DNA from: Chaetoderma sp. LZ-2023a
Lineage: Eukaryota; Mollusca; Caudofoveata; Chaetodermatida; Chaetodermatidae
Assembly (NCBI GenBank): GCA_034401795.1
Contig: CM067374.1
Location: 91,635,222-91,699,221, forward strand
Reading direction: 5' to 3'
DNA: 64,000 nucleotides
Shown here piece after piece: positions 5,735 through 62,809 of the stretch. The notes under the pieces are model-generated. The model was not told the DNA's origin. It searched no databases and saw only the letters and a list, made by a program, of their open reading frames with translations. Every line of letters begins with the position of its first letter. The first letter of the stretch is position 1. The position numbers and the translations under genes were made by a program.

Positions 5735-6497
5735 GGACCATTCCACATTATCCATCCATCACAATCAACTACATGACGTCTAGAATGGCATCATAATCAA
5801 TGACGTCATTATAACGTCATGCATGACTTAGACAAGTACGTCATGAACACATAATGGACCTTTCCAGTTTCAGCTAGGCCCCGCCCACCTCTAGCTAAGC
5901 TCCACCCACATCTCGCTCGTGTCGGGATCGATCGATCCTTGAAATACCTGACTATCAATTTCCAAAAAACTGTACAGGTAAACTGTTAAATATTTTGAAA
6001 CTAATTTGACGGGTTGCTGTTGCTGCTTATGGCAGCAACAGCGCCCAGTCAAATTATTTCAAAATATTAAAGAGCATGTTTATTAAATAGCAGACATACA
6101 ATTCTTACAACGTGTTGGACGATTAAGAGTTAAAGACGGGCCAACTAGAATCATTTATGACGTAATTATTATGATGTCAGCATGCGTGTCACTTAGTTGT
6201 CTATGACATCATATGACGTCATATAATCGAAGGATAAAATTGGAAAGGTCCATTGAGAACGGACTATGGGCTGTTGTAAGAATTGAATGTCTACTATTTA
6301 ATACATATTCTGGTTAATATTTTGAAACTAATTTGACTGGACCCAGTCAAATTAGTTACAAAATATTCAACAGCCTACCTGTATAGATTTCAGGAAATTG
6401 ATAGTCAGGGCATTCGCAGGGATCGATCCCAACACTGGGAAGTGTGGGTGGAGCTTAGCTAGAGGTGAGCGGGGAATAGCTAAAACTGGAAAGGTCC
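5735..6497 (+). mobile_element. Family A1 MITE, outer member of a nested pair
   Basis: Runs from GGACCATTCCACATTATCC to AACTGGAAAGGTCC and is flanked on both sides by AT (5733-5734, 6498-6499). It inserted into repeat K. It is itself interrupted at 5856-6251 by a second copy in the opposite orientation. Without that insertion it is about 365 bp. Confidence 0.85.
5856..6251 (-). mobile_element. Family A1 MITE, inner member of a nested pair
   Basis: A full copy of 396 bp with terminal inverted repeats GGACCTTTCCAG at the left and TTGGAAAGGTCC at the right, flanked by AT on both sides. In order on + it has GC-box-like GGCCCCGCCCACC, ATCGATCGATCC, hairpin H, TTTATTAAATAGC, and CRE-like TGACGTCATATAATCG. 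It is oriented opposite to the element it interrupts, so it is the younger of the two. Confidence 0.88.
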
Positions 6498-12249: not shown

Positions 12250-12600
12250 TTAACCCTTTAATGGTCAAGTTGGTCGAAAACGACCCCTGCAGTGATCTTG
12301 AGAAATCTCCATTTGCAGACAAAGAAGAGTATTTTTGAAAATTTACCACTTAAATGGCTGTCATTTCAGTGGCAAATTTTCAAAAATACTCTTCTTTGTC
12401 TGCAATTGGACAGTTGCTAAGCAGAAATTTGAATTTTCTTGACCATTACACTTTTGATGAATGCCCATTTGAAGGATAACAGAAATCTATTTTATTTTTC
12501 AATTTTCGTTATAAATTTACAAAAATACCCTCTTGGCTGCAAAAATTAAAATGTCCTTGAAAAGTATTGGCATTTAGGCTAAATGGTTAATTGGAATAAA
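12250..12600. mobile_element. Family B MITE (TTAA-flanked)
   Basis: Starts TTAACCCTTTAATGG and ends AAATGGTTAA. Inside, the arms TTTTTGAAAATTTACCACTT and TGGCAAATTTTCAAAAATAC form a long hairpin centred near 12362. CCATTTGCAGACAAAGAAG and TTCTTTGTCTGCAATTGG lie outside it. CCCTTT termini next to TTAA are typical of piggyBac-type elements; no transposase is present. Confidence 0.75.
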
Positions 12601-13880: not shown

Positions 13881-14445
13881 TTAAGATTCTCGTGGCCGGA
13901 TGCCTATAGAATACCACGCATGTGGTCCCATATTTCGATTGGTCGTTTGTCGACTCGATAGAAGCTATAGGCCTATATTACGGTATGCTAACCACATTTC
14001 CACTGATTATTTTGATAAATATTTGACTGAAGTGTGTTGCATCATCTACGTTTTGAGTACAAATGTATGATCCATTCAAAATAAAATGGTCTTGCTACAT
14101 GTACGCTACTAACGCAGGTTAATGAGGCCTGTAGCGTGCCGATACACGATCAAAACGGCCAGGTATAGGCTCAAATACAGGCTCAGTACCGGCCAACTAA
14201 CCTACGGTATCAGGGTTGCAACAGTTCTTAGCGTTCGGACACTAAATAGTGGTTATTACTCCAGGCAAGGCTAGCAACAGTTTTCAACAACACCAGTCTT
14301 CCTTTCACCCATTTATTCAACACGCTGGTTTCTGATCGTAGCAATATGCGGATAAACATTAGCGCCTCGTTAAATTTAATCATAATTGTCTCGCTATTGC
14401 AAACCACCAGACAATTATTTCAATGAACAAAACCTCTTGACTTTC
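13881..14445. other. Unassigned stretch
   Basis: No gene or known repeat identified. Confidence 0.35.
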
Positions 14446-14529
14446 TGAATATTTTGAAAACAATTTGACTGAAAGTTGTTGGTGGCTTAGCCACCAACAA
14501 CTTTCAGTCAAATTGTTTTCAAAATATTT
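14446..14529. repeat. Stand-alone hairpin module H, near-perfect
   Basis: Arms 14448-14486 and 14490-14528 are perfectly complementary over 39 bp around a 3-base loop (TTA). The outer arm reads AATATTTTGAAAACAATTTG. The flanks show none of the family A words, so this copy stands alone. A decayed copy follows at about 14924-15006. Confidence 0.85.
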
Positions 14530-15006
14530 AGCGAAACCAGAGATATAGTCCCTAGAATGTGTCGTCTGCAAAGACACAGTAGTTAGGCGGTTAAAATGCA
14601 TTCGTTTTCCCCCATGCACAAGTTAATGCTATAATTCCTTTACACACCCGCAAACAAAGATGGCGTTAAAATATCTTCCGGTCCGACAATAATTTGTAAT
14701 ATTCGCGTGCTATAAATGCAAAATTTCCCCTTAAACTAATCATCAAATGTCGGCTACTATTAACATTTTACTGAGACTTGCACATCGGGCGAAACCCAGC
14801 CCTCGCGCGAAACCGCTAGCGCCCAGACACACCCAGCCTTTAAGCTATGCAACCCTCTTTATTCAACGTACGAGAGTTGGACATTTAGACGATTTAATCC
14901 CTGCTATATCCAAGCTCTTCTGGAATAGTTTAGAGAGGAAAATGACAGAAAATAGTTGCTGTATGTGACCGGCAACAACTGTATGTCAAATCGTTTTAAA
15001 ACGTTG

Positions 15007-18514: not shown

Positions 18515-18911
18515 TCACCTTTCCAGAGTATCCGCCTATCACCTGGCGTCATATGACGTTATAATCAGCTAAGCGGCGTATAGGATGACGTCATAGTCAT
18601 TACGTCATAAACAATTATATTGTGCCCATCTTTAGCTCTTAATAGTCCGACACGTTGTACGAATTGTATGTATCTACTATTTAATAAACATGCTGTTGAA
18701 TATTTTGAAACCAATTTGACTGGACACTGTTGCTACCATAGGCAGCAACAGCGCCCAGTCAAATTAGTTCCCAAATATTCAATAGCTTACCTGTATAGTT
18801 TTCTGGAAATTGATAGTCATGGAGTTCAGAGATCGATCGATCCCAAAACGAGCGAGGTGTGGGTAGAGCTTAGATTGAGATGGGCGGGGCATAGCTAAAA
18901 TGGAAAGGGCC
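18515..18911 (+). mobile_element. Family A1 MITE copy, complete hairpin
   Basis: CACCTTTCCAGAG start, TGACGTCATAGTCATTACG, TCTACTATTTAATAAACATG, an intact hairpin H with loop side ATAGGCAGCAACAGC, GATCGATCGATCCC, GAGATGGGCGGGGC, and end ATGGAAAGGGCC followed by AT. Confidence 0.82.
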
Positions 18912-19385
18912 ATTGAGCAATGTAATGCATTAATCAGCTTCTATATTCCATTCAAAACACATTTACTCATATATAGTAACAGAATCTTTATCCAAGGAAT
19001 AAATAAATAAACAACTAATTAAATAAATAAGCATCACCGTTGACCATCTTCCCAACAGCTGAGATCTGGAAATCAATTATCGCGTGACGTCATTGTTTGG
19101 ATGCCATCGTAACGGCGACGTGTCAGTTTTCTTGTTGAATGAAATCAACATCGGCGGGGAACCAAATACCGTAACGTGGCAACGACTCCGCCCTAGCTAC
19201 CGCACGAGGTGTTTATTTTGAAAATAGTGATGCTAAATTTAAAACCAATTATATACGAAGTCAGCTTTAAATTGGCCATTATGCCCATTGGAGTGAAAAG
19301 TCTACGGACTAAGATAATGGTGTAGTAACTACCATTAAGACACAGCAGATGGTATAGGCTACTTACTAGAAACTGCCGCTGCTGG

Positions 19386-23599: not shown

Positions 23600-24182
23600 G
23601 GCTGTTTCAGTTTTAAGACAGGAATCATAGGCAGCAACAGCTGCCAGTTAAATGAGTTTCAAAATATTCAACACAATAGTCCTTCCATTATAAAGAATTA
23701 GTAATTTATGGTCTGTAATGGGTTAATATCGCTTAATAATTATACTGAGTATTAAAGTATTCATTATCATCTTATAGGCCCTAAGTGTGTCGTTGCATAG
23801 ATAGTTAAACGGATTCTTTCACTGATCCGGGCGTAACGAACACGATGGCGGAATCCGTCGTTAGACAGCTGAAATTAATTAAGAAGCTATCTTCCACTGG
23901 AAATGAAGCTTATAAAACCGTCAATTAATGCAATTGTAAATGTATTGGCCCCTTATTTGAAAATGTTATGGATCGTGTAGACTAAACGAATAAGCGGTCT
24001 ATAGCATCTGTATCTATGCATTAAGGAGCTAAGATTAATTTATACACGTAATGAAGTTGTAGTTCTGTGGAAGATAATGTCAAGCAACAAAGCCATGGGC
24101 CAAAAAGATGATACGTTTTAAGGGTTGTATGCATGATCAAGATGAATTTCAAATTTTAGTTGCGAGGCGCAACTGGTAGTTG
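23600..24182. other. Hairpin half and unassigned sequence
   Basis: 23631-23672 holds only the right arm of H (GCCAGTTAAATGAGTTTC). The remaining sequence is unassigned and has no recognisable gene. Confidence 0.45.
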
Positions 24183-24497
24183 GTCCGTCCGTCCGTCCGT
24201 CCGTCCGTCCGTTCGTTCGTTCGTTCGTTCGTTCGTTCGTTCGTTCGTTCGTTCGTTCGTTCGTTCGTTCGTTCGTTCGTTCGTTCGTTCGTTCGTTCGT
24301 TCGTTCGTTCGTTCGTTCGTTCGTTCGTTCGTTCGTTCGTTCGTTCGTTCGTTCGTTCGTTCGTTCGTTCGTTCGTCCGTCCGTCCGTCCGTCCGTCCGT
24401 CCGCCCGCCCGCCCGCCCGCCCGCCCGCCCGCCCGCCCGCCCGCCCGCCCGCCCGCCCACCCGCCCGCCTGTATGTATGTCTGTCTGTCTGTCTGTT
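24183..24497. repeat. Tetranucleotide array TCCG, TTCG, CCGT, CCCG, TCTG
   Basis: Ordered blocks: TCCG (24183-24210), TTCG (to about 24376), CCGT (to about 24402), CCCG (to about 24470), then TGTA/TCTG. Arg/Ser/Pro/Thr repeat frames are by-products. Confidence 0.95.
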
Positions 24498-24567
24498 TCT
24501 CGAGCCGCCTATGTCGCAACTATAGCGCGGTGTGGTTGTTATATAGACATGTATTAAAACACCAGAC

Positions 24568-25150
24568 GGCTTGATGAAACAGACGACGCAATAAAGTAGG
24601 CGACCCAGTGCAGGAGACGACTCAGTTAAGCAGATTACTTATTAAAGTAGTCGACTTATTGGAGCAGACGACGTGTTGAAGCAGGCGGCATGTTGAAGAA
24701 GACTTGTTGAAGCAGGCGTCTTGTTGAAGCAAGCGACTTGTTGAAGCAGAGGACTTGTTGAAGCAGACAACTCGTTGAAGCAGGCAACGTGTTGAAGTAG
24801 ATGACTTGTAGTCGACTTGTTGAAGCAGATGACTTGTTCAAGCTGACGACTTGTTGGAGCAGACGACTTGTTTAAGCAGACACTGCGTTGAAGCGGGCGA
24901 CTTGTTGGAGCAAACGACTTGTAGACGACTTGTTGGAGCAGACGACCTGTAGCCGACTTGTTGAAGCAGGCGACTTGTTGGCGCAGACGACTTGTTGAAG
25001 CAGACAACTTGTTGAAGCAGCGTACGTGTTGAAGCAGACGACTTGTTGAAGCAGAGGATTTCTTTGAAGCAGACGGTTTGTTGAACCAGGTGACGCATTG
25101 AAGTAGGCACCGTAGTGAAGAAGCCGAATTGTTGAAGCCGATGAGGATTT
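24568..25150. repeat. 17-bp minisatellite, about 30 diverged copies
   Basis: The unit is close to GACTTGTTGAAGCAGAC. The centre (about 24690-25080) is regular and the edges are worn. Because 17 is not a multiple of 3 the reading frame cycles, so all three minus-strand frames stay open and give Ser-Thr-Ser-Arg-Leu-like peptides. This is not evidence for a protein. Confidence 0.88.
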
Positions 25151-25468
25151 GCTGTAGATGACATGCTAGGCAAAGAATCAGTGAACGAACAAAGACATCT
25201 TGTCACTGGTCATCGTGTCAAAACACAAGAACACGTATGATCGTAGGCCCACATCATGAAGTGATCAATGTTTGAATAACCAATAAAGGAAGCAGTTGTA
25301 TACACGCAGTAACGTCCTGTGTAATTCGAACAAAAGCTGACACGTTGCATAGCGCCATTAATTGAATTGTTTTAATACGGTACAGCCCAAGATTAAGTTA
25401 GAATGTTTCCAAAACAAAAACAGAAATATGTTAATTAATACAATTTTAACACGATGTATAGCGGTGTT

Positions 25469-25553
25469 CTGTTGAATATTTTGAAGATGTATTTGGAAAA
25501 CATTGCTGCCATACGCCGCAATGACTTCCAGCGCAGTTATGTTCAAAATATTT
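25469..25553. repeat. Hairpin module H, variant with TTCCAAAACA flank
   Basis: TGTTGAATATTTTGAAGATG on the left and GTTATGTTCAAAATATTTAG on the right, around CATTGCTGCC/CCGCAATGACTTCC. The upstream AATGTTTCCAAAACAAAAAC and ACAATTTTAACACGATG recur beside the copies at 31270 and 37560. This variant may therefore be part of a longer element. Confidence 0.65.
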
Positions 25554-25652
25554 AGCTGTGTGTGATAAGTTATTTCTGAGCTGCATTGCTTATTGTATAT
25601 ACGGATGTAGCCGCATAGGTCTACACATTCTGAAAAATGACACAAACTCTAT

Positions 25653-25892
25653 TTAACCCCTTACACTCATATCAGCCAAAACCGGCGTCTGCACTGGTCT
25701 TGAGAAATATCCATCTGCAGACCAAGAGAAGATTATTATTTTAATTTACCACATGAATAACTGGCTCGATGATCGAGCCAGTCATTCCAGTGGTAAATTT
25801 TCAAAACATAGCCTTCTCTTAGTTTGCAAATGGACTTTTTCTATGAGAAAATTGGAAATTTTCTTGAACAAATTTGAGGGTTAAAGGGATAA
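25653..25892. mobile_element. Family B MITE (TTAA-flanked)
   Basis: TTAACCCCTTACACTCATATC at the left; GAGGGTTAAAGGGATAA at the right. The central hairpin is TAACTGGCTCGATGATCGAGCC/CAGTCATTCCAGTGGTAAATTT. The left CATCTGCAGACCAAGAGAAG mirrors the right CTTCTCTTAGTTTGCAAATG. Confidence 0.8.
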
Positions 25893-25992: not shown

Positions 25993-26776
25993 TGGGCAGG
26001 TATCCATTATAAACATGTTTGTTTGTAGGCCTATTCTTGACCCATACGCTTGTCTATTTAAGAGAGTAGTCCAACACAGATGATGATTGTAATCGGGAAC
26101 TAGCGATTAATTTGGACATGACGTATCCAGACATAGATCTCTATCTGGCTGTATGGTTAGGCTGATATTTTCAAAGATGCAGCCCTTCAGTATAATTGAC
26201 CTACTCGCACGCACACACGTACACGCACACTCTCAAAATAATTCTAAATATAACCTTGTTAATTTTGACATATATGTTAATTAGCAGCAACATTATATTA
26301 TTGCATAGTACTTCCCTGTTAAATAGGAACAATAATCTTCTCGTTAACAACGTCAAGTATAAAATCCCCGCCATTGTTTCCCCCCGCCTCATGAAAACTA
26401 GATCACATTTCTCAAATCATGCCAACCAGTTCACACTGTCTGCCAAACAGTCACGCGAACACTTGAACATGGCGGCCGTCGATTAATTCATATTAATATA
26501 ATAACCCCCAACCCCACCCACCCGGATTTCAAACGTATACTAGTTAGTTGACATTTCCAGTTTATCCATCAATCATATGACGTCATAATCAACTACGTGA
26601 CGTTGATGACGACGTCAAAACCAATGACATCATAAATTACGTTATTAATTCGTCACGGGCGCATAATTGATTAATTGGTGACGGACTAAGGCGCTGTTGT
26701 ACGAATTGTTAATATTTACTATTTAATAAACATGCTGTTGAATATTTTGAAACTAATTTGAATGGGCACTGTTGCT

Positions 26777-26913
26777 GCCACTGGCAGCAACAGCACTCAG
26801 TCAAATTAGTTTCAAAATATTCAACAGCTTACCTGTATGTTTCTGAAATCCATACAGGCAAGCTGTTGAATATTTTGAAACTAATTTGACTGAGTGCTGT
26901 TGCTGCCAGTGGC
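26777..26913. repeat. Inverted repeat, 63-nt arms with one mismatch
   Basis: The left arm begins GCCACTGGCAGCAACAGC, the right arm ends GCTGTTGCTGCCAGTGGC, and the spacer is 11 nt (26840-26850). The only mismatch is ACCTGTATG against CATACAGGC (T versus C). Confidence 0.92.
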
Positions 26914-26930
26914 ATGTTTATTAAATAATA

Positions 26931-27006
26931 TTGATTATGACGCCATATACGATCATTCCAGAACAACGCGTTGTTCTGGAATGATCGTATATGGCGTCAT
27001 AATCAA
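26931..27006. repeat. Perfect 76-bp palindrome without spacer
   Basis: The halves 26931-26968 and 26969-27006 are exact reverse complements. The centre is AACAACGCGTTGTT and the outer ends are TTGATTATGACGCC / GGCGTCATAATCAA. The outer sequence is the A2 left-end word. Confidence 0.95.
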
Positions 27007-27608
27007 TTACATCACATGTCGCCCAGCGTCGCAACCAAAATGCGTAATAGCTCACAGATCCGTCGGGAACATTTAAAAGTCTATGAAATGCACGGATTGT
27101 ATGACTTTGTTATTTAATAAACAATCTGTTGAATATTGTGAAAGTAATTTCACTGGGCGCTGTTGCTGCATAACAGTCGCCATAAGCCGCAACAGCACCC
27201 AGTCAAATTAGTTTCAAAATGTTCAACAGCTTACCAGTATCGTTACCATGATATTGGGATTCGGGGAATGCATGGTTCGATCGATCCCAACACGGACAAA
27301 GCGTGAGCGGAGCTTAGCTAGAGATGGGCGGGCAGAGCTAGAAATGGATCCCTCCATTCTCTCTAGAGAACTTTAACTAAATGGAAAAAACATAGTCAAT
27401 AATGAAAACGGTTCTTGCTTATCTTCCACCGGCGAGGCATGCCCATGCCGTGTGGCAATATCTATTTCAAGGAGTTCTCAAGGAACAGTTGCATGAGGAT
27501 AACAAGCGGGTAATATGCCTAATGAAGCGTTATTTAAAGAGGGTAAATGAGACATAATATTGACTACTTTACTATCCCCATAGCTATTGGCAATGTCTGG
27601 ATGCTGAT

Positions 27609-28730: not shown

Positions 28731-28836
28731 ATATTAAATATTTTGAAACTAATTTGACTGGGACCTGTTGCTGGGAGCTGTTGCTCTCGTGGGCAGCAAC
28801 AGCTTCCAGTCAAATTAGTTTCAAAATAGTCGACAG
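28731..28836. repeat. Stand-alone hairpin module H, tandem loop
   Basis: Left arm TTAAATATTTTGAAACTAAT; right arm CCAGTCAAATTAGTTTCAAA. The inner left side reads CTGTTGCTGGGAGCTGTTGC, so the loop-proximal CTGTTGCTG segment has been duplicated. Confidence 0.75.
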
Positions 28837-28964: not shown

Positions 28965-29286
28965 ATGTTTCCATTTTTAGCTATGCCCCGCCCATATCTA
29001 GCTAAACACAACCCACGCTTCGCCGTGTTGGGATTGATCGAACCCCGAATGCCATAACTATCAATTTCCTGCAAACTGTACAGGAAATCTGTTGACTATT
29101 TTGTAACTAATTTCACTGGGTGCTGTTGCTGCCCATGGCAGTAACAGCGCCCGGTCAAATTAGTTTCAAAATATTCAACAGAATATTTGTTAAATAGTAA
29201 AGACATACTATTCGTACACAAACGCATAGTCTGTCTTCACGTAGTTGATTATGACGTCATATGATGGGTGGATACTCTGGAAAGGT
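28965..29286 (-). mobile_element. Family A1 MITE copy
   Basis: TTTTAGCTATGCCCCGCCC, GTGTTGGGATTGATCG, hairpin H (about 29088-29182), then TAGTTGATTATGACGTCATA and CTGGAAAGGTGAG. Confidence 0.8.
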
Positions 29287-29287
29287 G

Positions 29288-29360
29288 AGTTGGACTGGAA
29301 GGCATGATTGCCTTAGGCAACAATGTCTTCCAATCCAATTATGCTCAAGATATTCAACAG
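29288..29360. repeat. Stand-alone hairpin module H
   Basis: TTGGACTGGAAGGCATGATTG with CAATGTCTTCCAATCCAA and CTCAAGATATTCAACAG. It resembles the TTCCAAAACA-associated variant, with only the inner stem well kept. Confidence 0.6.
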
Positions 29361-29549: not shown

Positions 29550-30025
29550 AATTGACCTTTCCAGTTTTAGCTACGTCTCGCCCATCTCTAGCTAAGCCCC
29601 ACCCACATCTCACTTGTGTTGCGATCGATCCCTGAACTCCATGACTATCAATTTCCATAAAATTATACAGTAAGTTGTTAAATATTTTGAAACTAATTTG
29701 GATGGGTCCTGTTGCTGCCTATGGCAGCAACAGCGCCCAGTCAAATAAGTTTCCAAATATTCAGCAGCATGTTTATTAAATAGCAACTTCTTCTTCTTCT
29801 TCTTTTCGTTCGCTGATCATACCGCCAGTCCTAAAGTGACTATCGACATGATCATAAGCGCTTATGATTAAATAGCAACGACATACAATTCGTACAACGT
29901 GTCGGCCAATTAAGCGTTAAAGACGGACTATATCGAGTCATTCATGACGTCTTGATTATGACGTCAGCATACACGTTACTTAGTTTATTATGACGTCATA
30001 TGATGGATGGATAAACTGGAAAGGT
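29550..30025 (-). mobile_element. Family A1 MITE carrying a retroposon insertion
   Basis: GACCTTTCCAGTTTTAGC at the left and AAACTGGAAAGGTGAATT at the right. A complete hairpin and several TGACGTC words are present. It is interrupted at about 29786-29866 by a GAA-tailed retroposon. The sequence TTAAATAGCAAC occurs on both sides of that insertion. Confidence 0.85.
29786..29878 (-). mobile_element. Short GAA-tailed retroposon, copy 2
   Basis: Read on the minus strand: CATAAGCGCTTATGATCATG, then GACTGGCGGTATGATCAGCG, then AAAAGAAGAAGAAGAAGAA. It is flanked by a 12-13 bp perfect target-site duplication (GTTGCTATTTAAT on that strand). It sits inside a family A1 MITE, so it is younger than that MITE. 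Body about 80 bp. Confidence 0.82.
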
Positions 30026-30163
30026 GAATTCTAATAGCGACTGTCATCGTTATCTATCAGGCACAAATCATGGGCTCTACAGGTTCAGGCATGTGTTACG
30101 TGCCTGTTAGATACGCTTGATCCACTAATTTGATGCGCGTCCATCTCCACCGTGGCAATTTTT

Positions 30164-31080: not shown

Positions 31081-31298
31081 CATGGGAGGTGTTGGGGTGG
31101 GGGTGGGGGAGGGGGTGGTGGAATACCCCGGACCCCAACTCTCTATATGAGAGGAACAACCCCTGCCCGGACCCACCCCACCTCAGGTATCCCAGATCAG
31201 TATATTTTCCTAAGCCTATGAATAGAGGCTGGCAAAGGATTTGCAGCACAGCTCATGGATAGCTTTAAATGTTTCCAAAACAAAATACGATGTATTTT

Positions 31299-31372
31299 TT
31301 TATATTTTGAACATATTTGTATTGGAAGACATTGCTGCTGTCTTCCATCCAATTATGTTCAAAACATTTAAT
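31299..31372. repeat. Stand-alone hairpin module H, TTCCAAAACA variant
   Basis: TATATTTTGAACATATTTGT and AATTATGTTCAAAACATTTA around GGAAGACATTGCTGCTGTCTTCC, preceded by ATGTTTCCAAAACAAAATAC. Confidence 0.65.
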
Positions 31373-31382
31373 AAGGCATTTC

Positions 31383-31622
31383 TTAACCCTTTAAGCCTCA
31401 TATCAGCCAAAAACGGCTTCTGCAGTGATCTTGGCAAATGTCCATTTGCAGACCAAGAAAAGACAATTTTTGACAATTTACCACTGGAATGACTGGCTCG
31501 ATAACCGAGCCAGTCATTCCAGTGACAAATCTTCAAAAATAGTCGTCTCTTGGTCTCCAAATGGACATTTTCGATGAGAAAACCTAAAAAAATTTGAATA
31601 AATTCGAGGGTTAAACGGTTAA
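31383..31622. mobile_element. Family B MITE, best-preserved copy, TTAA both ends
   Basis: TTAACCCTTTAAGCCTC to AGGGTTAAACGGTTAA, 240 bp. The central hairpin is CACTGGAATGACTGGCTCG / GAGCCAGTCATTCCAGTG, extended outward by TTTTTGACAATTTAC / CAAATCTTCAAAAATAG and CCATTTGCAGACCAAG / CTTGGTCTCCAAATGG. TTAA target plus CCCTTT termini point to mobilisation by a piggyBac-type transposase. None is encoded here. Confidence 0.85.
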
Positions 31623-33596
31623 TATCGTGCAAAAAATGGCGCTAACTAACATGTTTCTGTTATTGTTTTAGAACCATGTTAAGTTATTTCTTAGCTGCGC
31701 TGTACACGTGATGAAGTACAGTTGACAGGTCATTCATTGATTTCTTGCAATGATACCATAGATAAATGTTTTCTGCGTGAAGTTGTGATAATACACTAGA
31801 GCGTAAGTAGGCCTACGTACGTACGCGAGTGCGTGCGTGAGCGCTTCAACGATCATTCCAGCAACTTCACAGACACAGATGAAACATTTACAGACATGAC
31901 AGAGGTCTGAGTTTAGCACGCCCGCTGACCAATGTCTCATTGGATATTTTCTTAATTACTTCCATGCTTGCTAATTATCTGTCTCCTAAATCAGTGCATC
32001 CCGCTAATCAGCGCGGGGGAGTCTGGGTGATAAACACTCTGGCATCTTCACGCGAAAACAGCGCTCCCTAGGGCGACACCATTTGGCAGCTTACCATATC
32101 ATGTGATCTCAATTTGGTTCAAAATTTTAAAGCACGTTTCTAAATATATATTATAGTTTTGAAAATTATGCGTAAATACAGATAATGAAATTAGCTTTAT
32201 TGCTGCTTTCGATTACATTGTTTTCTAAACAGTCATCGTGGTTTTAGCTTTGCTCATAACATGCACTGGGGGTTAGGGACAGATGCCACCTTTGTGGCGA
32301 ACGTAGACGTTCTTTTAAACGGATGGTACCTCCCACCCCACTCGCACGCACGCAAACACGCACGCCATGCTTCACCCTACATCATCACCACCCCACCCAA
32401 CCCCAGTAGTCATTATTGAAAGTAAATTAAAAATAGTGCATTTTCACAACTAAATAAGCGATTGTCAACATGACTATTAGTCTGTATGTTATCAAACATC
32501 CATCTATTATTTATTATTCTTTTAAAAAAGATTTTTCTTTAAAATAGGGGTTGCTTCGTTTGAACCACTCGACCCCACCCACCTTATGGGCCCGGCACAA
32601 GCATATTTGATGAACTTCAGACAAAAGATAATAAATTCGAATAGATTGTAAGGGGAAAGTAAGATTCTGATAGATTGGCCAGATATTGTTTTCATTACAT
32701 CTACCACGTGTCACAAGCTGCTACCTTTTTACGCATTTACTTCGAAAGACCACACGTGCATGGGAACATAGCTGCACTCGCGTATGGCGATCAAGTCTTT
32801 TATAGAATTGTCAAAATATTCAATAAAGTTTCCTAATTAGGCCTAAATAACAAGATGAAAAAGCTTAGGAGATAACTATTGTAAGGAATTATAAATAAAA
32901 CCTGTTTTGTTAAATTTGTTAAATTTATATAAAGGAGAACAGCATATGGGCAGAATCGGTTTACTTCTTTTTCTCTGCGGGAGTAAACATGTGTATCTAG
33001 CGAGCGTTCTTCTGATTGACCATGGTGTAAAAGACAGCTGGACATTTCTCGCTGGCTGGTCTGATGGTCAAAGAGGTCATGGACATGATGACCGCACTAC
33101 GGTACAATGTGTCCGACTTGACGAGTTTACCATTCTCTACACTTGTCACACCGGTTTCAAAACACCAGTGTTCACTCAAGATATTTATTTGTAAAACATC
33201 CTTGGTATTATTTTAGAAATAATGTGCCTGGACGTTTTTGTTGCCAAGCAAAGAGAGCTGGCTTTCAGACATATTATTAGCCAGCGATAGCTATCATCTG
33301 CAGAATAATTGCATGACATGTAGAGTGAACTGGGCGGTTAGAGTGTTTGGTTAGGGTTAGGTGGGCTTGTACCATGCCGCGAGCACTTGATAGCTAGTCA
33401 CCCTGAAGTGGACACTAAACATGTAGGATTGCGCAAGAATGAACAAGATGAACCTGTACGTGTAAATCTGACGAGAGATAAATGAAGGAGCTTCCTTTGA
33501 CCATAGACTGTGACTGACTGCATGGGTTCTGAAAGCCAGACATGATGCAATAACGCGTCACTTCGCTGTGTATTGAAGAGGAACGTCCCAGAACGT
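31623..33596. other. Unassigned stretch
   Basis: About 2 kb with no recognisable repeat family and no ORF with a domain. Overlapping frames at 32907-33194 and 32997-33179 look like chance. Confidence 0.4.
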
Positions 33597-34168: not shown

Positions 34169-34500
34169 ATGGACATTTCCATTTTTAGCTATGCGCCGCC
34201 CATCTCTAGCTAAGCTCCACCCACCCCTTTTTCGTGTTGGGATCGATCGATCTCTGAGCTATCAATTTCCAGAAAACTATACAGGTAAGTTGTTGCATAT
34301 TTTGAAACTAATTTGACTGGGTGCTGTTGCTGCCTATGGCAACAACAGTGCCCAGTCAAATTAGTTTCAAAATATCCAACAGAATGTTTATTAAATAATA
34401 GAGACATAAAATTCGTACAACGTGTCGGACTATTAAGAGTTAAAAACGGTCCTAATAGAATCGTGTATGACGTAATGATTATGTGACACAGTAAGCGTCT
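34169..34500 (-). mobile_element. Family A1 MITE copy
   Basis: GGACATTTCCATTTTTAGC, GCGCCGCCCATC, GTGTTGGGATCGATCGATC, a full hairpin H (34290-34382) and ATGACGTAATGATTATGTG. It abuts the next, oppositely oriented copy directly. Confidence 0.8.
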
Positions 34501-37167: not shown

Positions 37168-37392
37168 TTAACCATTTAACACTCATATCAGCCAAAAACG
37201 GCTTCTACAGTGGTGTTGAGAAATGTCTATATCCGGACCAAGAACTGACTATTTTTTGAAAATTTACCACGATAACTGAGCCAATCAGTCCAGTGGTAAA
37301 TTGTCCAAAATAGTCTTCTCTTGGTCTGCAAATGGACATTTTCTATGAGAAAATTGAAATTTTCTTAACAAATTTGAGGGTTAAAGGGTTAA
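37168..37392. mobile_element. Family B MITE, TTAA both ends
   Basis: TTAACCATTTAACACTCAT to GAGGGTTAAAGGGTTAA. The central stem is shortened (CACGATAACTGAGCCAATC). CTTCTCTTGGTCTGCAAATG is well preserved. Confidence 0.82.
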
Positions 37393-37559
37393 GACACGAA
37401 ACACACTATACTACCGGAAAATATTAAACAATTATTGAATTATTACTGAACAACAGAAATAATAACATTGATAAGCTTGTCAAATAGTGACACTAGGCCC
37501 TACACTGTTCTTAAAGATCATCATACGACTTACCTAGTATTGTAAATAATTTTACATGT

Positions 37560-37745
37560 TTCCAAAACAATAACTGAAACGTGTTAGCTATAGCACAATT
37601 GAACACTATGTAAGAAATGTTCTGTTGAATATGTTCGCCTTAATTGGATTGGAGCCCCTTGGTGCCTTAGGCAGCAATGGCTTCCAAACAAATTAAGGCC
37701 TAATTGGTATTCAGCAGTAGACCTACGTTTTAATTTGTTTTGGAA
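37560..37745. repeat. Hairpin module H with TTCCAAAACA-type flanks
   Basis: TTTCCAAAACAATAACTGAAAC and CTATAGCACAATTGAACAC precede the hairpin arms (TTCGCCTTAATTGGATTGGA / CCAAACAAATTAAGGCC). The arms differ from standard H in the middle, but both arms changed together. Confidence 0.65.
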
Positions 37746-37783
37746 ATATGTTATGTTATTTCTGTGGCCAGGCAGCCACCGTA

Positions 37784-42392: not shown

Positions 42393-42994
42393 TTAAAGAA
42401 TAACTAACCTCATCGTTTGATAGCTGTTCAGGTGACCTAGTATGCCACTCATAAACTATGCAGGTAATTTTAAGCTTTTTGTCATGCCGCTAAAGCAAGA
42501 TATTCTGGCTTTACTAGCTAAATGTTGGTACATTTATATTTGGTACCTATGATGGCTGTCATGATTTACTTTTCAACCAATCACAAAAAACCTTGTGTGT
42601 TTGCCTCGGTATAGATGCTCAGTCATAGAGGTGCCGTCTATAGTTTGGCAATTTGGTATAAAAGCACGCACAGAGGTAAGCTGTTGAATATTTTGACACT
42701 AATTTGACTTAGGCAGCAACAACTTCCAGTCAAATTAGTTCCAAAATATTCAACAAAATGAGTATTACATAATAAAGAATGTAATGCATTGGTACTTACA
42801 TGACATCACGCACTATCTCTGGAGGAGACAAAATGGTGGCGATCAAAAGTTCAACATTTATATTATATTATATTGCAAAGCAGATAATTGTGGTACAGAT
42901 AAGGGAATGCGCCGGGACATGAATGATATAGAATCTATGGAACATAATCTGTCCGTGCCATACAACATTTGAGATGAGATTAGCATCCCTTTAA
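42393..42994 (+). mobile_element. Family C MITE, copy 1 (TTAA-flanked)
   Basis: 602 bp from TTAAAGAATAACTAACCTC to GAGATTAGCATCCCTTTAA. The inverted ends (TTAAAGRATAACTAACCTC / TTAAAGGGATGCTAATCTC) agree at most positions. It contains hairpin H (42681-42755), then TAATAAAGAATGTAATGCAT and GGAGACAAAATGGTGGCG. Copy 2 at 62090-62809 has the same plan, so H belongs to family C as well as family A. No coding capacity. Confidence 0.82.
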
Positions 42995-43064: not shown

Positions 43065-43301
43065 AGTTAGAAGAGGCAATTTTTTTTCCTCAACAGTGTT
43101 TCTTAAATTATCTAAAGATCGTATCGTTTTAAACTACTCAACTTATCATCTGTTGATATATTTGAACTATTGGAACATCTCAATACCGGATATGTAATGT
43201 GAACACTCGTTTTGTGTTGTTGACATTGGAAACGTAGGAAATAGCTGCCATTTTGTTTGTATCGTGGACATCCCGCCTCATAACAGGAGCACAAGTTTGG
43301 A

Positions 43302-43931
43302 ATGGCGTCCTATGCATTCTCACTGCTGCTATTGTTAACATTACGTCAGCACGTCGTGACACGGTGTGACCATCAATCAACTTTCTCAGTCATATTGCCT
43401 AAATCAATTATTGCTCTTCGTTCATCAAATAGAACATTATGCTACCCGAAAACAAACAGTACTGTATTTATGCTACTTCTGCTATTATCTGGCGACATTC
43501 AATCAAACCCAGGACCCAGAACTAAGCAACCAAGTACATACCCGTGTGGAATATGTGATTATACAGTCTCGTGGAACTCTAGAGGTACTGCTTGTGATGA
43601 ATGCAGTGTGTGGTATCACAAGTTATATACTGACCTGTGCAGCGCTGACCATGAACTGTTAAATCAGCCAAGCATAAACTGGATTTGCTATAAATGTCAT
43701 AACACCAATTGTAATAGCTTCACTTTTCGCGGTTATGAGCTTGAGTGCTCAAACTACTGCAGTCCAATGTACGATCCAAACATCATCCTACCCTCTGTAT
43801 CATCTGCTTTTGCGTTTAGTCCACTGAGGTCCAAACATCATCAGCTAAAGACTTATCAGGTTGTAAAACATCATCATCAGATACCTCTGCTATTTTTAAC
43901 ATACCTAAAAAACAAGACCTTAGAATATTGA
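43302..43931 (+). pseudogene. LINE ORF N-terminal part: 2A-like leader and PHD-type zinc finger
   Basis: A frame of 209 codons starting ATGGCGTCC, a fair start context. Residues 1-12 hold a Leu-rich hydrophobic segment, and residues 55-63 a second one (FMLLLLLSG). Residues 64-72 are GDIQSNPGP, a 2A-like translational recoding motif. Residues 82-132 form a PHD-type Cys4-His-Cys3 pattern: C82xxC85, C98xxC101, H106, C113, and WIC129xxC132. Similar fingers precede the endonuclease in some CR1-group LINEs. The correct frame switches to the next one near 43830, so residues after about 176 are out of frame. Confidence 0.8.
43491..43517 (+). other. 2A-like ribosome-skipping motif (GDIQSNPGP)
   Basis: 2A sequences end in D-x-E-x-N-P-G-P and cause the ribosome to skip a peptide bond between G and P. 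Here the E position is Q. Some CR1-like LINEs of invertebrates are known to carry such motifs. The preceding Leu-rich stretch is also typical of 2A context. Skipping would separate a 71-residue hydrophobic leader from the PHD-endonuclease-RT protein. Confidence 0.75.
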
Positions 43932-45688
43932 CTATAAACTGTTGCAGTGCCTTTGACAAGAAATCTGGGTTGTTTGCTATCCTTGACTACATCAAACCAG
44001 ACATTGTCTGTGGGACAGAATTATGGCTTCACGGTATCCAACCCAGTCGAAATCCATCACCCAACCACATAAAAGCATGCGACGTATTCCCGGACAATTA
44101 CACAGCCTATCGGAATGACAGATCAACCGCTGGTGGTGCCGTGTTTGTCCTAGTTCAGAACAACTTAATGTCAGTCAAACAACCTGATCTTGTCACAGAC
44201 TGTGCACTTGAATGGGTCAAAATTAAATTACAGAAAGAAAAGGACTTAATGATCGGTGCCTTCTACATGCCACATCGTAGCTCCAAAGACATGATTGAAC
44301 TAGATAAATCCCTCCAGCTCATGTCATCAAGAAGCCTAATGCAGAAATAAGTCATTCTAGCAGGTGATTTCAACTGTCCAGATATCAACTGGGAAAACTG
44401 TTCCATAAACCAGAACGGCACAGACAAAGCCATACAGCAAATGCTAGTTGAGATCTCATCCGATGCCCACCTAACTCAAATCCACATGGCACCGACTCGT
44501 CAAAGCAACACCCTTGACCTAGTATTCACATCAAACCCCACACTTGTGAAGTCATCGGTGTCAGCCCCTGGCATATTGGACCACGACCTGGTCATAACAT
44601 ACATGACCACGAAACCACATTACGTCAATCAAGCACCAAGGAAATTCTATCAGTACTCAAAAGCCAACTGGCCCCAACTAAAGAGAGAACTGGATGATTT
44701 ATCAAATGCTATTACCAATCAATACCATGAAGGCAACAGTGTTCCCCTGCTATGGAGTGTTTTCCATACTCGCCTCATGTCATCAGTAGAGCGGTCCATT
44801 CCATATAAAATGCGTAAGAACACGACCTTTCTTCCATGGTTCGATAGATCACTAAAACGGATGTTACGACGAAAAAGCAATCTTTACACACAAGCTAAGA
44901 AATCAGACAGCTGGGACACCTACCGCAAATTTCAACGCATGTGTAAGCTAAAAATGAGGCAGGCAGAGTGGGACCGCATCATTAACATCATCCTAGAAGG
45001 ACTGAAATCACACAACTCCAAGCCATTTTGGAGATACGTGAAGAGTAAATGTCAGGACAACATCGGCGTCTCCCTGCTCAAAGAAAAAGGTTCATTAATG
45101 AATGACAGCAAATCAAAGGCCCGAATCCTGCTAGAACAATTTAAATCTGTGGTCACACCACATGTTGAAGACGCCACTAACCAAGCCATGCCGCCTGTCA
45201 ACATAACATGCAAGCAAGCAATCACAAATATTATCATTACGCAGGAAGGTGTGACTAAGCTGCTAAAAGATGTCAAAGCATCAAAAGCCTCAGGACCAGA
45301 GAACATCCCAAATAAAGTCCTAAACGAATGTGCTGAAAACATCGGTCCTGGTCTAAGCCTGATATTCCAGAAATCCCTGAACACTGGCGCTCTACCAGAG
45401 GACTGGCTTACAGCAAATATATCTAATGTCTACAAGAAAGGAGATAAGCATGTTGCAGAGAACTACCGACCAATCTCCCTTACCTCTGTGTCATCTAAGC
45501 TACTAGAACAAATCATATGTAAGCACATCCTTGACCACCTTGCGCGAAACAGCATACTGACGAACCTCAACCATGGCTTTCGTTCTGGTTACTCATGTGA
45601 AACCCAGCTGCTCATCACATCTCACGATCTGCTCAAATCCTATGATGCAGGAACACAAGTTGACATCGGCATCCTAGAAGGCCTTTGA
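43823..45688 (+). pseudogene. LINE ORF middle part: AP endonuclease and start of reverse transcriptase
   Basis: After the frameshift the frame reads LRILTINCCSAFDKK, the start of an APE-type endonuclease, with GTELWL (catalytic Glu at 44018-44020), then an in-frame TAA at 44348-44350 just before VILAGDFNCPD. The final endonuclease motif is GILDHD (44570-44587), where ISDHD is usual, so the Ser is replaced by Leu. RT sequence begins after about 45260 with ASGPENIPNKVL and NYRPISLTS. It breaks at about 45678 just where the DxxKAFD motif should be complete. Confidence 0.85.
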
Positions 45689-51569: not shown

Positions 51570-51790
51570 CGAAATTAGAACACACTTAATTTTTCACACC
51601 AGAAATTCTTACCATCTTATGCCTATGCTTAATGTATACCTTAAATCCATCATCACGGGAGTCAAATTATTAATTGGGGTCATCTAAATATTGCGTATGT
51701 TTTAATAAACATTGTTTATTTCATCAAAATTAATCCAAAGTTTTACATAAAAGGCATCGAGAAAAAATAGAAATCACATGGATGAGTTTA
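51570..51790 (+). repeat. Dispersed repeat I, copy 1
   Basis: TCATCACGGGAGTCAAATTA and AAATATTGCGTATGTTTTAAT match TCTTCACGGGAGTGAAATTA and AAATATTGTGTATGCTGTAAT in the copy at 52885-53100, in the same order. Confidence 0.65.
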
Positions 51791-52159: not shown

Positions 52160-52325
52160 AAACTTATTCACGAAAATTTTAATTTTCTCATAAAAATGTC
52201 CTTTTGCAGACCTAAAGATGATTATTTATGAAAATTTACCTATGGAATGACAGGCTCATTATGAGTGGAAGCCCTAAGGCAGTAACAGCCTCCAGTAATA
52301 TATTTTCAAAATATTCAACAGAATG
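52160..52325. mobile_element. Half family B copy followed by half hairpin H
   Basis: TTTTAATTTTCTCATAAAAATG, CCTTTTGCAGACCTAAAGATG and GAAAATTTACCTATGGAATG give one B arm ending at the palindrome centre. GCAGTAACAGCCTCCAGTAA and TTTTCAAAATATTCAACAG give the right H arm. Confidence 0.55.
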
Positions 52326-52570
52326 TGCTTTAATTTGTAAAGAATTACACCTGTATCAAAGAACCACCATCTTAATAGCCCCCAAGTCAAGTGTCCACTA
52401 TACACAGGTTTGACTGTGTATTGAATAGCGTGCAGACGACATGGTAGGGGATTTCCCACTAATGAGGAAGTTCACAGCAGCAATTTCCTGGAAATAGGAG
52501 AGCTATATTTAGACAAGCGGCTACTGTGTATCAGATTTTGGTGAGAAATAACTCCAGTAAAAGGATCACT

Positions 52571-52658
52571 GTTAAATATTTTGGAAACTATTTAACATAA
52601 GGTTGTTGCTACCTTAGGCTGCAACAACCTTCTGTTAGATATTTTTTTAAATATGCAG
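52571..52658. repeat. Stand-alone hairpin module H
   Basis: TTAAATATTTTGGAAACTAT with AAGGTTGTTGCTACC on the left, and GCTGCAACAACCTTCTGTTA with ATTTTTTTAAATATGCAG on the right. Loop TTAG. Confidence 0.7.
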
Positions 52659-52884: not shown

Positions 52885-53100
52885 TAACACAGAAATAGGA
52901 CACATTTCCCTGGTTCAAATTATTTGCGTCTTATAACTATATATAATGTATACATGTCCATCTTCACGGGAGTGAAATTATTAAGTGGCACACTGTATAA
53001 ATATTGTGTATGCTGTAATAATGATTGTTTTTGCACCAAAATTCTTCATAAAATATAACACAAATTTGTCGTGAAAATCTACAAATCATGTGATGTCAGG
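52885..53100 (+). repeat. Dispersed repeat I, copy 2
   Basis: Partner of 51570-51790, diverged but collinear over about 210 bp; it ends with AAATCATGTGATGTCAGG against AAATCACATGGATGAG. Confidence 0.65.
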
Positions 53101-58866: not shown

Positions 58867-60149
58867 GGTAGTCTGAAAGTTTAATTTTACTTGATCGGTT
58901 TAGTTTAAACTTGATCTCTGTTGCCTGTGATTTCAACTGTTCAAATCAGCTAAAATTCAGTCTAGAAACTCAGACACGTTTATAGAACAGAGGTCATAGG
59001 TCAAGGTCATTAGCTAAGAACCTGCAACCGGTAGTTAGAGGGAGCTAAGCTTCTTGTCTCCTAACTACAAATTTTCAAGGAGATCGTTCTTATACTTTTA
59101 TATTTGATTTATGTTACCGGCTGTTTCAGAAATTAGTCCCACCCAGCTTACTTATGTTGTCCCTAGAATAGCTTTCAAGTGAAAGCATCTTGTTTACTTG
59201 TCAAATAAGCGGCACAAGATTCTTTTCTTGAACAGGTTATTCTAGGAGTGTAGGCCCAACATACTTCTAGACAGTGTCCGGGATCTTAGTATTTGTTGAT
59301 TATCAACATCAGTTGAGTTAGCAAATATGTAAGCCAGATAGAATTTATATTGGAGTGTTGTTGCTAGATAGTGTGCTCAATCGCTATCGATTAAGATACA
59401 ATATCTGAGCATTGTTAACTGTTGCCAGATTGTTGCAAGCACAACATTTCCAAAATAACTGTAGGCATTATTGCCAGATAATGCACTCAATCTCTATCTT
59501 TTACTGTACAAAATTTGAGCATTGTTAACTGTTGCCAGATTATTTTTTATTCAAACTTAGTCTCTGGGCTACCCAATGTTTAGGGTCACTTAGTTGACAT
59601 TAAATTCAATTTATAGCAAGTTTGATGAAAATCATCTGGTCAATTAAAATTGACAATTATATAAATTGTCCTCAATACAACTGCGCACTTTACACTACAT
59701 GTTAGTCAGATAAATTTAACCCCTGGCTAAGAATTGGAGTAAGGAATTATAAGCTAGTTATTTAGTTATTTAGCTGATAAAAATCTTAGAGCGCGACAAG
59801 TTGTTTGCTAACTGAGGATTACTTGTGTAGACTAATAGGTGTTCAACCAACGTGACGTTATTTACCTAAGTTGCTTAGTCTTGTGGCAAAACATTTTTGT
59901 TCTTCTTTTCGACGTAGCAGACTAGACACAAGTCTTTAGTAACAGGGCATAATTTTTCTGGTATCGCATCTCAATTTGCTACACATGTTTAAGCAGTTGC
60001 TATACATTCTGCAACCAACATAGCTGTATCTGCTATGCAAAATTTGTAGGCAATTGCAATTTATCATTGATTTTCAAAATTCTATCATTAACCCTTTTAA
60101 CAACAAATCCCTGAAAAAGTGCATTCTTTACAATGTATATCATATTTTG
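58867..60149. other. Unassigned stretch with a 110-bp tandem duplication
   Basis: GAGCATTGTTAACTGTTGCC starts at 59407 and at 59517, each preceded by a GCTAGATAG/GCCAGATAA and CTCAATCTCTATC-type word. Two diverged units lie at about 59352-59545. No gene recognised. Confidence 0.5.
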
Positions 60150-60236
60150 TTGAATATTTTGAAATTAATATGACTGGAAGCCATTGCTGCCTAAGGCAGC
60201 AATGGCTTACAGTCATATTAATTTCAAAATATTCAA
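60150..60236. repeat. Stand-alone hairpin module H, 42-nt arms
   Basis: Arms 60150-60191 and 60195-60236 match at 41 of 42 positions around the loop TAA. Outer TTGAATATTTTGAAATTAAT, inner GCCATTGCTGCC. The flanks carry none of the family A, B or C words. Confidence 0.9.
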
Positions 60237-60810
60237 TAGCTTTCCTATTTGTTTGCTCTGAGATTGAGATACAGGGAATTTATCGGTGAAAGAGTTGATC
60301 AGATTGCTATACATTTTTGCCGATAGCTATACAATTTTTAATTTGCATAGCAATACATGCTATGCAAATATCAAATTCTAAATTATGCCCTGAGTAAACC
60401 CATTAGGAATTTGGTGCCACCCTGCCAACCCATCCTTTTCCATTCTAATAGCCTCTGCATGGCCTGCACTTCCTTCTTTTTTCAAGACTATTTTTTCAAG
60501 GTGTACCTTGAGTGTCCTCTAAACCCACAGTATGGACTTTTCATCCGCTTGTCATCAGTGGATCATTCAAATGCGTCTAGTGCTTGAGAGATGCATGGAA
60601 TACAGGCAGATGAGATCTCATGTAGCCTCAAGGAACAGGGACAATGTTGTTCATGAGCTAGAACTTGTAACCGGCTGGTGTAATGGGTAATCTGTCGAGA
60701 CAGATTGGCTAAGAAGGGAAAACAACTGTAGGGGTGGTGGGAGGAGATGGGGCAATTGGGGTGCATCACACACACACACCCAACAGCCTGGGAACTCGCC
60801 ATCTTGCCTG
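60237..60810. other. Unassigned stretch
   Basis: Overlapping frames on both strands (60563-60971) have no recognised domain. Confidence 0.4.
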
Positions 60811-62089: not shown

Positions 62090-62809
62090 TTAAAGGATAA
62101 CTAACCTCATCTCTTGATAGCTATTCAGATTCTCTAATATGCCACTCAGAAATTATGCGGGTAGTTTTAAGCTTTTTATTATGCTGCTAAAGAAAGATAT
62201 TCAGGCTTTAGTATCTAAATGTTACTACATTTCTACAGCCTATGCTGGCTGTCATTATTTACTTTTCAACCAATCAGAAATAGCCTAGCGTGTCCGCCTC
62301 GGTATATACACTCAGTCATAGAGTCTCCGGCTATAGTTGGCAATGTTTTTATAAAAGTATGAGATCCGCAATTCGACTGTGATAACACCACCACTCGGGT
62401 TCACTTTTTGGTGCACAGCTTTAACTTCGCCAAAGAGAACTCCGGGTGGCAACACAAAGATCAACAAGCTGAGACCCTAGGTAAGTAGGTAAGCTGTTGA
62501 ATATTTTGAAACTAATTTGACTGCAAGTTGTTGCTGCCAACAGCTTGCAGTCAAATTAGTTTCAAAATATTCAACGAGATGAGTATTACATAATAAAGAA
62601 TGTAATGCATTGGCACTTAATTGATATCACACACAATCGCTTGAGGAGACAAAATGGTGGTGATCACTGTTCAACATTTACGCGATATTACAAAGCAGAT
62701 AATTGTGATAGAGTGACCGCAATGTGACAAAATATGAATGATATGGAATCTATATACCATAATCTATCGGTGCAGTATAACATTTGAGATGAGATTAACA
62801 TACCTTTAA
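62090..62809 (+). mobile_element. Family C MITE, copy 2, nested in element D
   Basis: TTAAAGGATAACTAACCTC to GAGATTAACATACCTTTAA, with TTAA at both edges. Compared with D copy 1, the D sequence is continuous across it (before: CGTCATGTATTTAA; after: TGAGCCATATTTGAG). It contains hairpin H (62494-62575) and a 120-bp repeat N (62361-62480) that copy 1 lacks. Confidence 0.85.
62361..62480. repeat. 120-bp repeat N, copy 2, inside a family C MITE
   Basis: GAGATCCGCAATTCGACTGT to GCTGAGACCC. The matching place in family C copy 1 (TATAAAAGCACGCACAGAGG, about 42660) has no such sequence, so it was inserted or acquired. Confidence 0.75.

Follow-up and report, generated by a model that had tools for sequence, protein, structure and literature searches.

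The hairpin at 60150–60236, called H here, is read as the core of a central cassette of about 90–170 bp that occurs in several MITE-like non-autonomous families with different ends; active lineages would retain this cassette, and it would pass from one family to another (probability about one half). The window, which is the whole 64-kb stretch of DNA analysed, contains ends of four target-duplication classes around this hairpin and its relatives: an AT core in family A, TTAA in family C, a 5-bp AGTAA in element E, and TTA or TTAA in family F. With four sets of ends, therefore, no single transposase explains H.

The stem-loop that the sequence-only reading had described at this position is confirmed by a palindrome scan:

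60150–60236, forward strand: hairpin H, with 43-base arms and a 1-base centre (palindrome scan and RNA fold)

H is about 90 bases long. The predicted RNA fold energy of 60147–60239 is −64.5 kcal/mol (z −15.5), which none of 200 shuffles equals, and all six H copies that were folded do better than all 200 of their shuffles (z from −7.6 to −16.1). A profile made from seven copies, including those at 60150 and 14446 and with both strands merged, matches 38 loci of the 64-kb window at 15 bits or more. The palindrome scan of the whole window gives 20 non-overlapping palindromes: 12 are H and one is an inverted duplication of H; the unrelated family D accounts for three, an AT array for one, and the other three are of different kinds. 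An exact scan with a 27-base H pattern gives no hit in the viral contig set and none in the genome contig set. The H profile has no match among at least 120 viral-contig stretches picked by a 16-base pattern; the family A profile has one weak match among them (E 0.009), taken as chance.

Such a hairpin could be a precursor of miRNA or siRNA that transposons have spread and that is retained for its small-RNA product, which we consider quite improbable. Near-perfect 43-base arms would suit siRNA better than miRNA. In the window, every Rfam family stays below its gathering score, so that no described microRNA family is matched there, and the 29 weaker matches at 60150 are likewise below that score and reflect the hairpin shape. 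In favour of a small-RNA source, the hairpins are stable and, in terms of sequence, so on both strands, and MITE hairpins are known sources of miRNAs (PMC1784062). The mismatched arm pairs of 13 copies (18 G-T, 32 A-C, 32 others) allow no conclusion about strand-specific RNA pairing, as a fixed A-C site in family A inflates the 32 A-C pairs.

H was said to lie in the middle of family A, and it does so in the copies whose hairpins were located:

18528–18913, forward strand: family A copy, hairpin 18693–18785
5855–6237, reverse strand: family A copy, hairpin 5983–6074
29554–30026, reverse strand: family A copy with ends GACCTTTCCAG and CTGGAAAGGTG and AATT on both sides, hairpin 29676–29766
34170–34484, reverse strand: family A copy, hairpin 34292–34382

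Fifteen copies of the family were aligned. They are about 300–470 bp long, end in ACCTTTCCAG and CTGGAAAGGT, and have an AT-core duplication (AATT on both sides in one copy, by eye in the others). Family A is thus short and non-coding, with terminal inverted repeats (TIRs), a target duplication and many copies, as MITEs are. Two fresh fold-back rearrangements are visible in a family A cluster at 26776–27007: one at 26776–26914, with 64-base arms that are 98% alike, and a perfect 39+39 palindrome at 26930–27007 that joins two family A left ends. Elsewhere, the left end of an inserted A copy cuts into a variant hairpin at 29272–29360, which is therefore older than that A copy.

The presence of H within the TTAA-flanked family C also holds for both copies, those with hairpins at 42681 and 62494:

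42397–42990, reverse strand: first family C copy, with TTAA at either border and imperfect inverted ends; hairpin 42681–42754, one arm shortened
62094–62805, reverse strand: second family C copy, with TTAA at either border; hairpin 62494–62575

TTAA is found at four of four borders, and the inverted ends are imperfect. In one arm of the 42681 hairpin, the stretch nearest the loop has been lost. Compared by eye, the ends of A and C look unrelated. In family C, at 42650–42690 and 62345–62500, the AGGTAAG of the hairpin edge is preceded by a TATAAAAG box, an arrangement that might have the look of a promoter followed by a splice donor. As a splice donor, the AGGTAAG at the hairpin edge of A and C was dropped, being absent from E and from the copy at 28733.

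The copy at 60150 had been listed among those lacking the context of either family. In fact, an element of 450 bp, which has a TIR and a duplication of its own, surrounds it almost centrally:

59943–60392, forward strand: element E, holding the 60150 hairpin, with TIR and AGTAA duplication; single copy in the window
60117–60280, forward strand: stretch of E resembling the middle of family A (the hairpin, about 30 bp to its left and about 50 bp to its right)

E has the TIR and the target duplication of a MITE: its ends form a 13/13 inverted repeat, CAGGGCATAATTT, at 59943–59955 and 60380–60392, and AGTAA is found on both sides (5/5). E also has a pair of similar subterminal stretches, each about 70 bp long. 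No second copy with E ends is found in the 64-kb window. None of 20,000 Markov-simulated centres gives a TIR and duplication pair like that of E. In the TIR scan, E scores 18.0, which is only at the 98% point of random window centres because these include family A inverted pairs, and the Markov control is the cleaner test for E. Thus E is a third element with H, neither A nor C.

A further set of ends surrounds a variant of the hairpin in family F:

37555–37750, forward strand: family F copy that ends in CATGTTTCCAAAACAA, with TTA at either border; variant hairpin 37622–37717
31269–31678, reverse strand: family F copy, variant hairpin at about 31302–31374, interrupted by a nested element D at about 31389–31621
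25403–25558, forward strand: family F copy, one end recognisable, TTTCCAAAACAA at 25406–25417; variant hairpin 25469–25554

Two copies have both of the family's own ends and the third has one. The TIR-scan score at 37555–37750 (16.5) is near the 95% point (16), so F rests on the recurrence of its ends. Indeed, TTTCCAAAACAA occurs exactly four times in the window, always in an F copy, and eight times with at most one mismatch, versus 0.81 expected. The H profile scores 33.6 bits on the F hairpins at 37622 and 25469 and 11.8 bits on that at 31302; by these scores, the F hairpin is a diverged relative of H. The element nested in F belongs to family D, an unrelated TTAA-flanked palindromic repeat also found at 12308–12410, about 25640–25892 and about 37171–37392; its ends, TTAACCCTTTAA, are presumably piggyBac-like.

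The unit in common between families is larger than the hairpin. When flanks are compared with those of family A outwards from the edge of the hairpin, with a Markov null (15 rows, uncorrected, minimum p 0.0007), the left flank gives p 0.0013 for both copies of C, 0.006 for E and 0.0007 for 52260, with weaker values for 23626 (0.045), F 37622 (0.041) and 28733 (0.24). The right flank gives p 0.0007 for E and for 28733, 0.047 and 0.020 for the C copies and 0.019 for F 37622. The copies at 14446, 52569, 21688 and F 25469 never do better than p 0.035, in either orientation. C, E, 28733 and 52260 therefore have sequence next to H in common with A, and for F the likeness to A is marginal on these p values. 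About 30–34 bp on one side and 7–56 bp on the other are common to A, C and E, with the same polarity. This polarised stretch speaks against a bare hairpin having been inserted into each of the three elements separately.

The copies for which no family ends were recognised are the following:

14445–14531, no strand assigned: near-perfect hairpin, private changes in both arms, no ends and no convincing flank similarity
52569–52657, no strand assigned: decayed hairpin, arm changes in common, neither ends nor flank similarity found
28733–28835, reverse strand: hairpin with about 50 bp of family A flank on one side, own ends not found
52260–52321, reverse strand: partial hairpin with about 40 bp of family A flank, own ends not found

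The claim that four copies (14446, 28731, 52571 and 60150) are free of context survives in part. The copies at 14446 and 52571 have neither recognised ends nor a convincing flank likeness; that at 60150 is inside E, and that at 28731 has about 50 bp beyond H in common with A on one side (p 0.0007). The copy at 14446 is still possibly a stand-alone one. A TIR search around 14446, 28733, 52290, 52613 and 23649 gives nothing above chance, a weak negative in that the scan also misses the imperfect ends of C. Two stretches of about 130 bp, at 51604–51732 and 52918–53044, are directly repeated with 76% likeness and bracket two hairpin copies.

It had been pointed out that H would not be a unit of its own if every lone copy were a decayed A or C element. 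The flanks that 28733 and 52260 have in common with A fit such decay, but E has its own ends and duplication and F has its own ends. This reading is refuted for 60150 and has next to no chance of holding for all lone copies.

Another proposal is that H is an independently mobile foldback unit. In its most explicit form, H would be a palindromic MITE of the Made1 type, composed of two 43-bp TIRs back to back. One transposase would read both repeats, so that these would change in step within each subfamily, and H would have been inserted separately into the ancestors of A, C and E and into those of F. The size and plan of H match those of Made1, which has two 37-bp repeats around 6 bp (PMC1784062); Made1 and hsa-mir-548 are, like H, short near-perfect palindromes of about 80–90 bp derived from transposons (PMC1784062). 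The arms of H also share changes by lineage, 14446 and 52569 have no ends or convincing flanks, and the flank likeness of F is marginal. However, Made1 is itself mobile (PMC1784062), whereas H lies centrally within larger elements whose ends are different. The flank outside the hairpin that A, C, E, 28733 and 52260 have in common means that these are not separate insertions of H, and 60150 is inside E. Moreover, none of seven copies tested has a target duplication directly at the hairpin base: with the boundary left free, as for a duplication at the ends of a palindrome like that of Made1, the longest matches are chance-like (4–6 bases, none above 6) and have no common boundary. The proposal of a mobile H is therefore weakened and, as a Made1-type element, doubtful, even if 14446 and 52571 could still be independent insertions. 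A Helitron-type end was also considered at the left edge of the module (TCTTTACTATTTAATAAA, which we take to resemble Helitron starts) and was dropped, as no matching 3′ end is seen by eye.

The sequence-only reading had asked whether the two arms of a copy share private changes, and changes common to both arms are found at 60148 (6), 14446 (10) and 52569 (8). Changes were counted against the family A arms and consensus, and are given here as left, right and shared: 7, 8 and 6 for E at 60148; 11, 12 and 10 for 14446; 17, 13 and 8 for 52569; 6, 4 and 3 for C at 62494; 2, 1 and 0 for C at 42681; 14, 14 and 7 for F at 37622; 15, 12 and 5 for F at 25469; and 4, 6 and 1 for 28733. With the inner 39 positions alone, 5, 7 and 7 are shared for 60148, 14446 and 52569. 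The 12 copies outside family A, among them 29272, 21688, 23626 and 52260, whose right arms are damaged or missing, have 53 same-base and 18 different-base doubles, versus 32.7 doubles expected. The 14 copies of family A have 39 left and 48 right changes, with 3 same-base and 5 different-base doubles, versus 4.0 expected. The arms thus changed together between lineages and decayed independently within family A, the pooled contrast of same- and different-base doubles (53/18 in the 12 others versus 3/5 in A) reaching only p 0.042. From these counts, pairing was kept or renewed along the lineages that founded families, and then lost copy by copy.

Renewal could also occur with no selection at all, if template-switch palindrome correction restores the arm pairing at times and the centre is passive filler. 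Template switching is a mutational route to new or renewed perfect stems with compensatory changes, and can create and mend hairpin stems (PMC8794818). The fold-backs at 26776–26914 and 26930–27007 are fresh fold-back events, and one correction event each could account for the changes that the arms of E, 14446 and 52569 have in common. The template-switch study deals with RNA genes (PMC8794818). In the 14 copies of family A, which are dead, renewed pairs are not in excess: there are only 3 same-base doubles, among 8 doubles in all for about 4 expected. Correction alone also leaves unexplained why H has changed less than the rest of A, and we consider this account unlikely.

Indeed, H is the slowest-changing stretch of family A. 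In 15 copies with CpG sites masked, the mismatch to the consensus is 103/1227 (8.4%) in H and 552/3090 (17.9%) outside it; for the 40 bp that adjoin H on each side, it is 164/1118. As the left side is in part poorly aligned, the right side is the fairer comparison: by column means, H is at 8.4% versus 14.1% for the right side (p 0.0004), and 11 of 14 copies have the lower value in H (Wilcoxon p 0.002). The difference from the right terminal 52 columns of A has p 0.018, and the near left flank does not change significantly faster than H (p 0.13). The divergence excess between H and flank in A is found mainly in the older copies. In family C, H alone is not significantly slower (10/76 versus 104/527, p 0.21). 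When the adjoining flank is included, the difference becomes significant (14/124 versus 100/479, p 0.008), this block having been delimited after the alignment was seen. The suggestion that H is kept for a function gains support from this slow change and from the co-change of the arms between families.

A cassette that passes between families and is kept in active lineages could come about as follows. Filler copying in interrupted gap repair is a model for the birth of MITEs. By this route, which is the simplest one, the cassette would pass between families as filler copied between transposon ends when gap repair after excision is interrupted, and the hairpin may favour strand switching during that repair. 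Active lineages with a perfect hairpin would leave more copies, and dead copies would lose the pairing of their arms afterwards. The benefit of the hairpin would act at a step independent of the transposase, either as fold-back DNA in repair or replication or as a folded transcript. In a stronger form, put forward tentatively, H would be a selfish passenger hairpin cassette with no one home transposon, outliving each of its hosts by being re-captured between unrelated ends served by different transposases, and kept perfect by selection on the hairpin in each active lineage. No active element, transcript or transposase is seen in the 64-kb window.

MITE centres are usually taken as dispensable filler. 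If a centre is common to several duplication classes and kept as a hairpin, part of the success of MITEs would be independent of the transposase, and the families described here would be a tractable case for the birth of MITE families from an old centre and new ends. The CMITE families of Acropora corals have different TIRs and a conserved internal region that is more alike between families than the TIRs; the authors suggested a role in transposition for this centre, whose origin is unknown (PMC2872659). The H families are similar in having a common conserved centre and different TIRs, the centre being more alike between families than the ends, which were compared by eye. In contrast, the coral elements are about 100 bp long, all TTAA-flanked and piggyBac-like (PMC2872659), whereas the H families are about 200–710 bp long and fall in several duplication classes. 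PiggyBac-type ends with TTAA are thus not found in every H family, the duplications of A and E being different. The centre of the H families is a long hairpin with co-changing arms, unlike that of the CMITEs, and the CMITE probe sequence does not resemble H by eye (PMC2872659). The passages on silkworm MITEs in PMC2997013 describe no shared centre, and in the literature outside subscription journals and Repbase, by the titles and opening lines of abstracts that the searches listed, no MITE families with a common centre and different ends were found besides the coral CMITEs. The latter are the closest precedent, and H extends their pattern across duplication classes and adds a co-changing hairpin.

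The rest of the window gives some context. No tRNA is found in it by ARAGORN. A CR1-like LINE at 43284–45688 has endonuclease and reverse-transcriptase matches, and its presence indicates that the window is eukaryotic, probably from an animal. Its first reading frame contains GDIQSNPGP, which we take to recall a 2A peptide; a text search of the literature on this found no paper. At 24131–25161, arrays of 8-base and 17-base tandem repeats lie next to each other.
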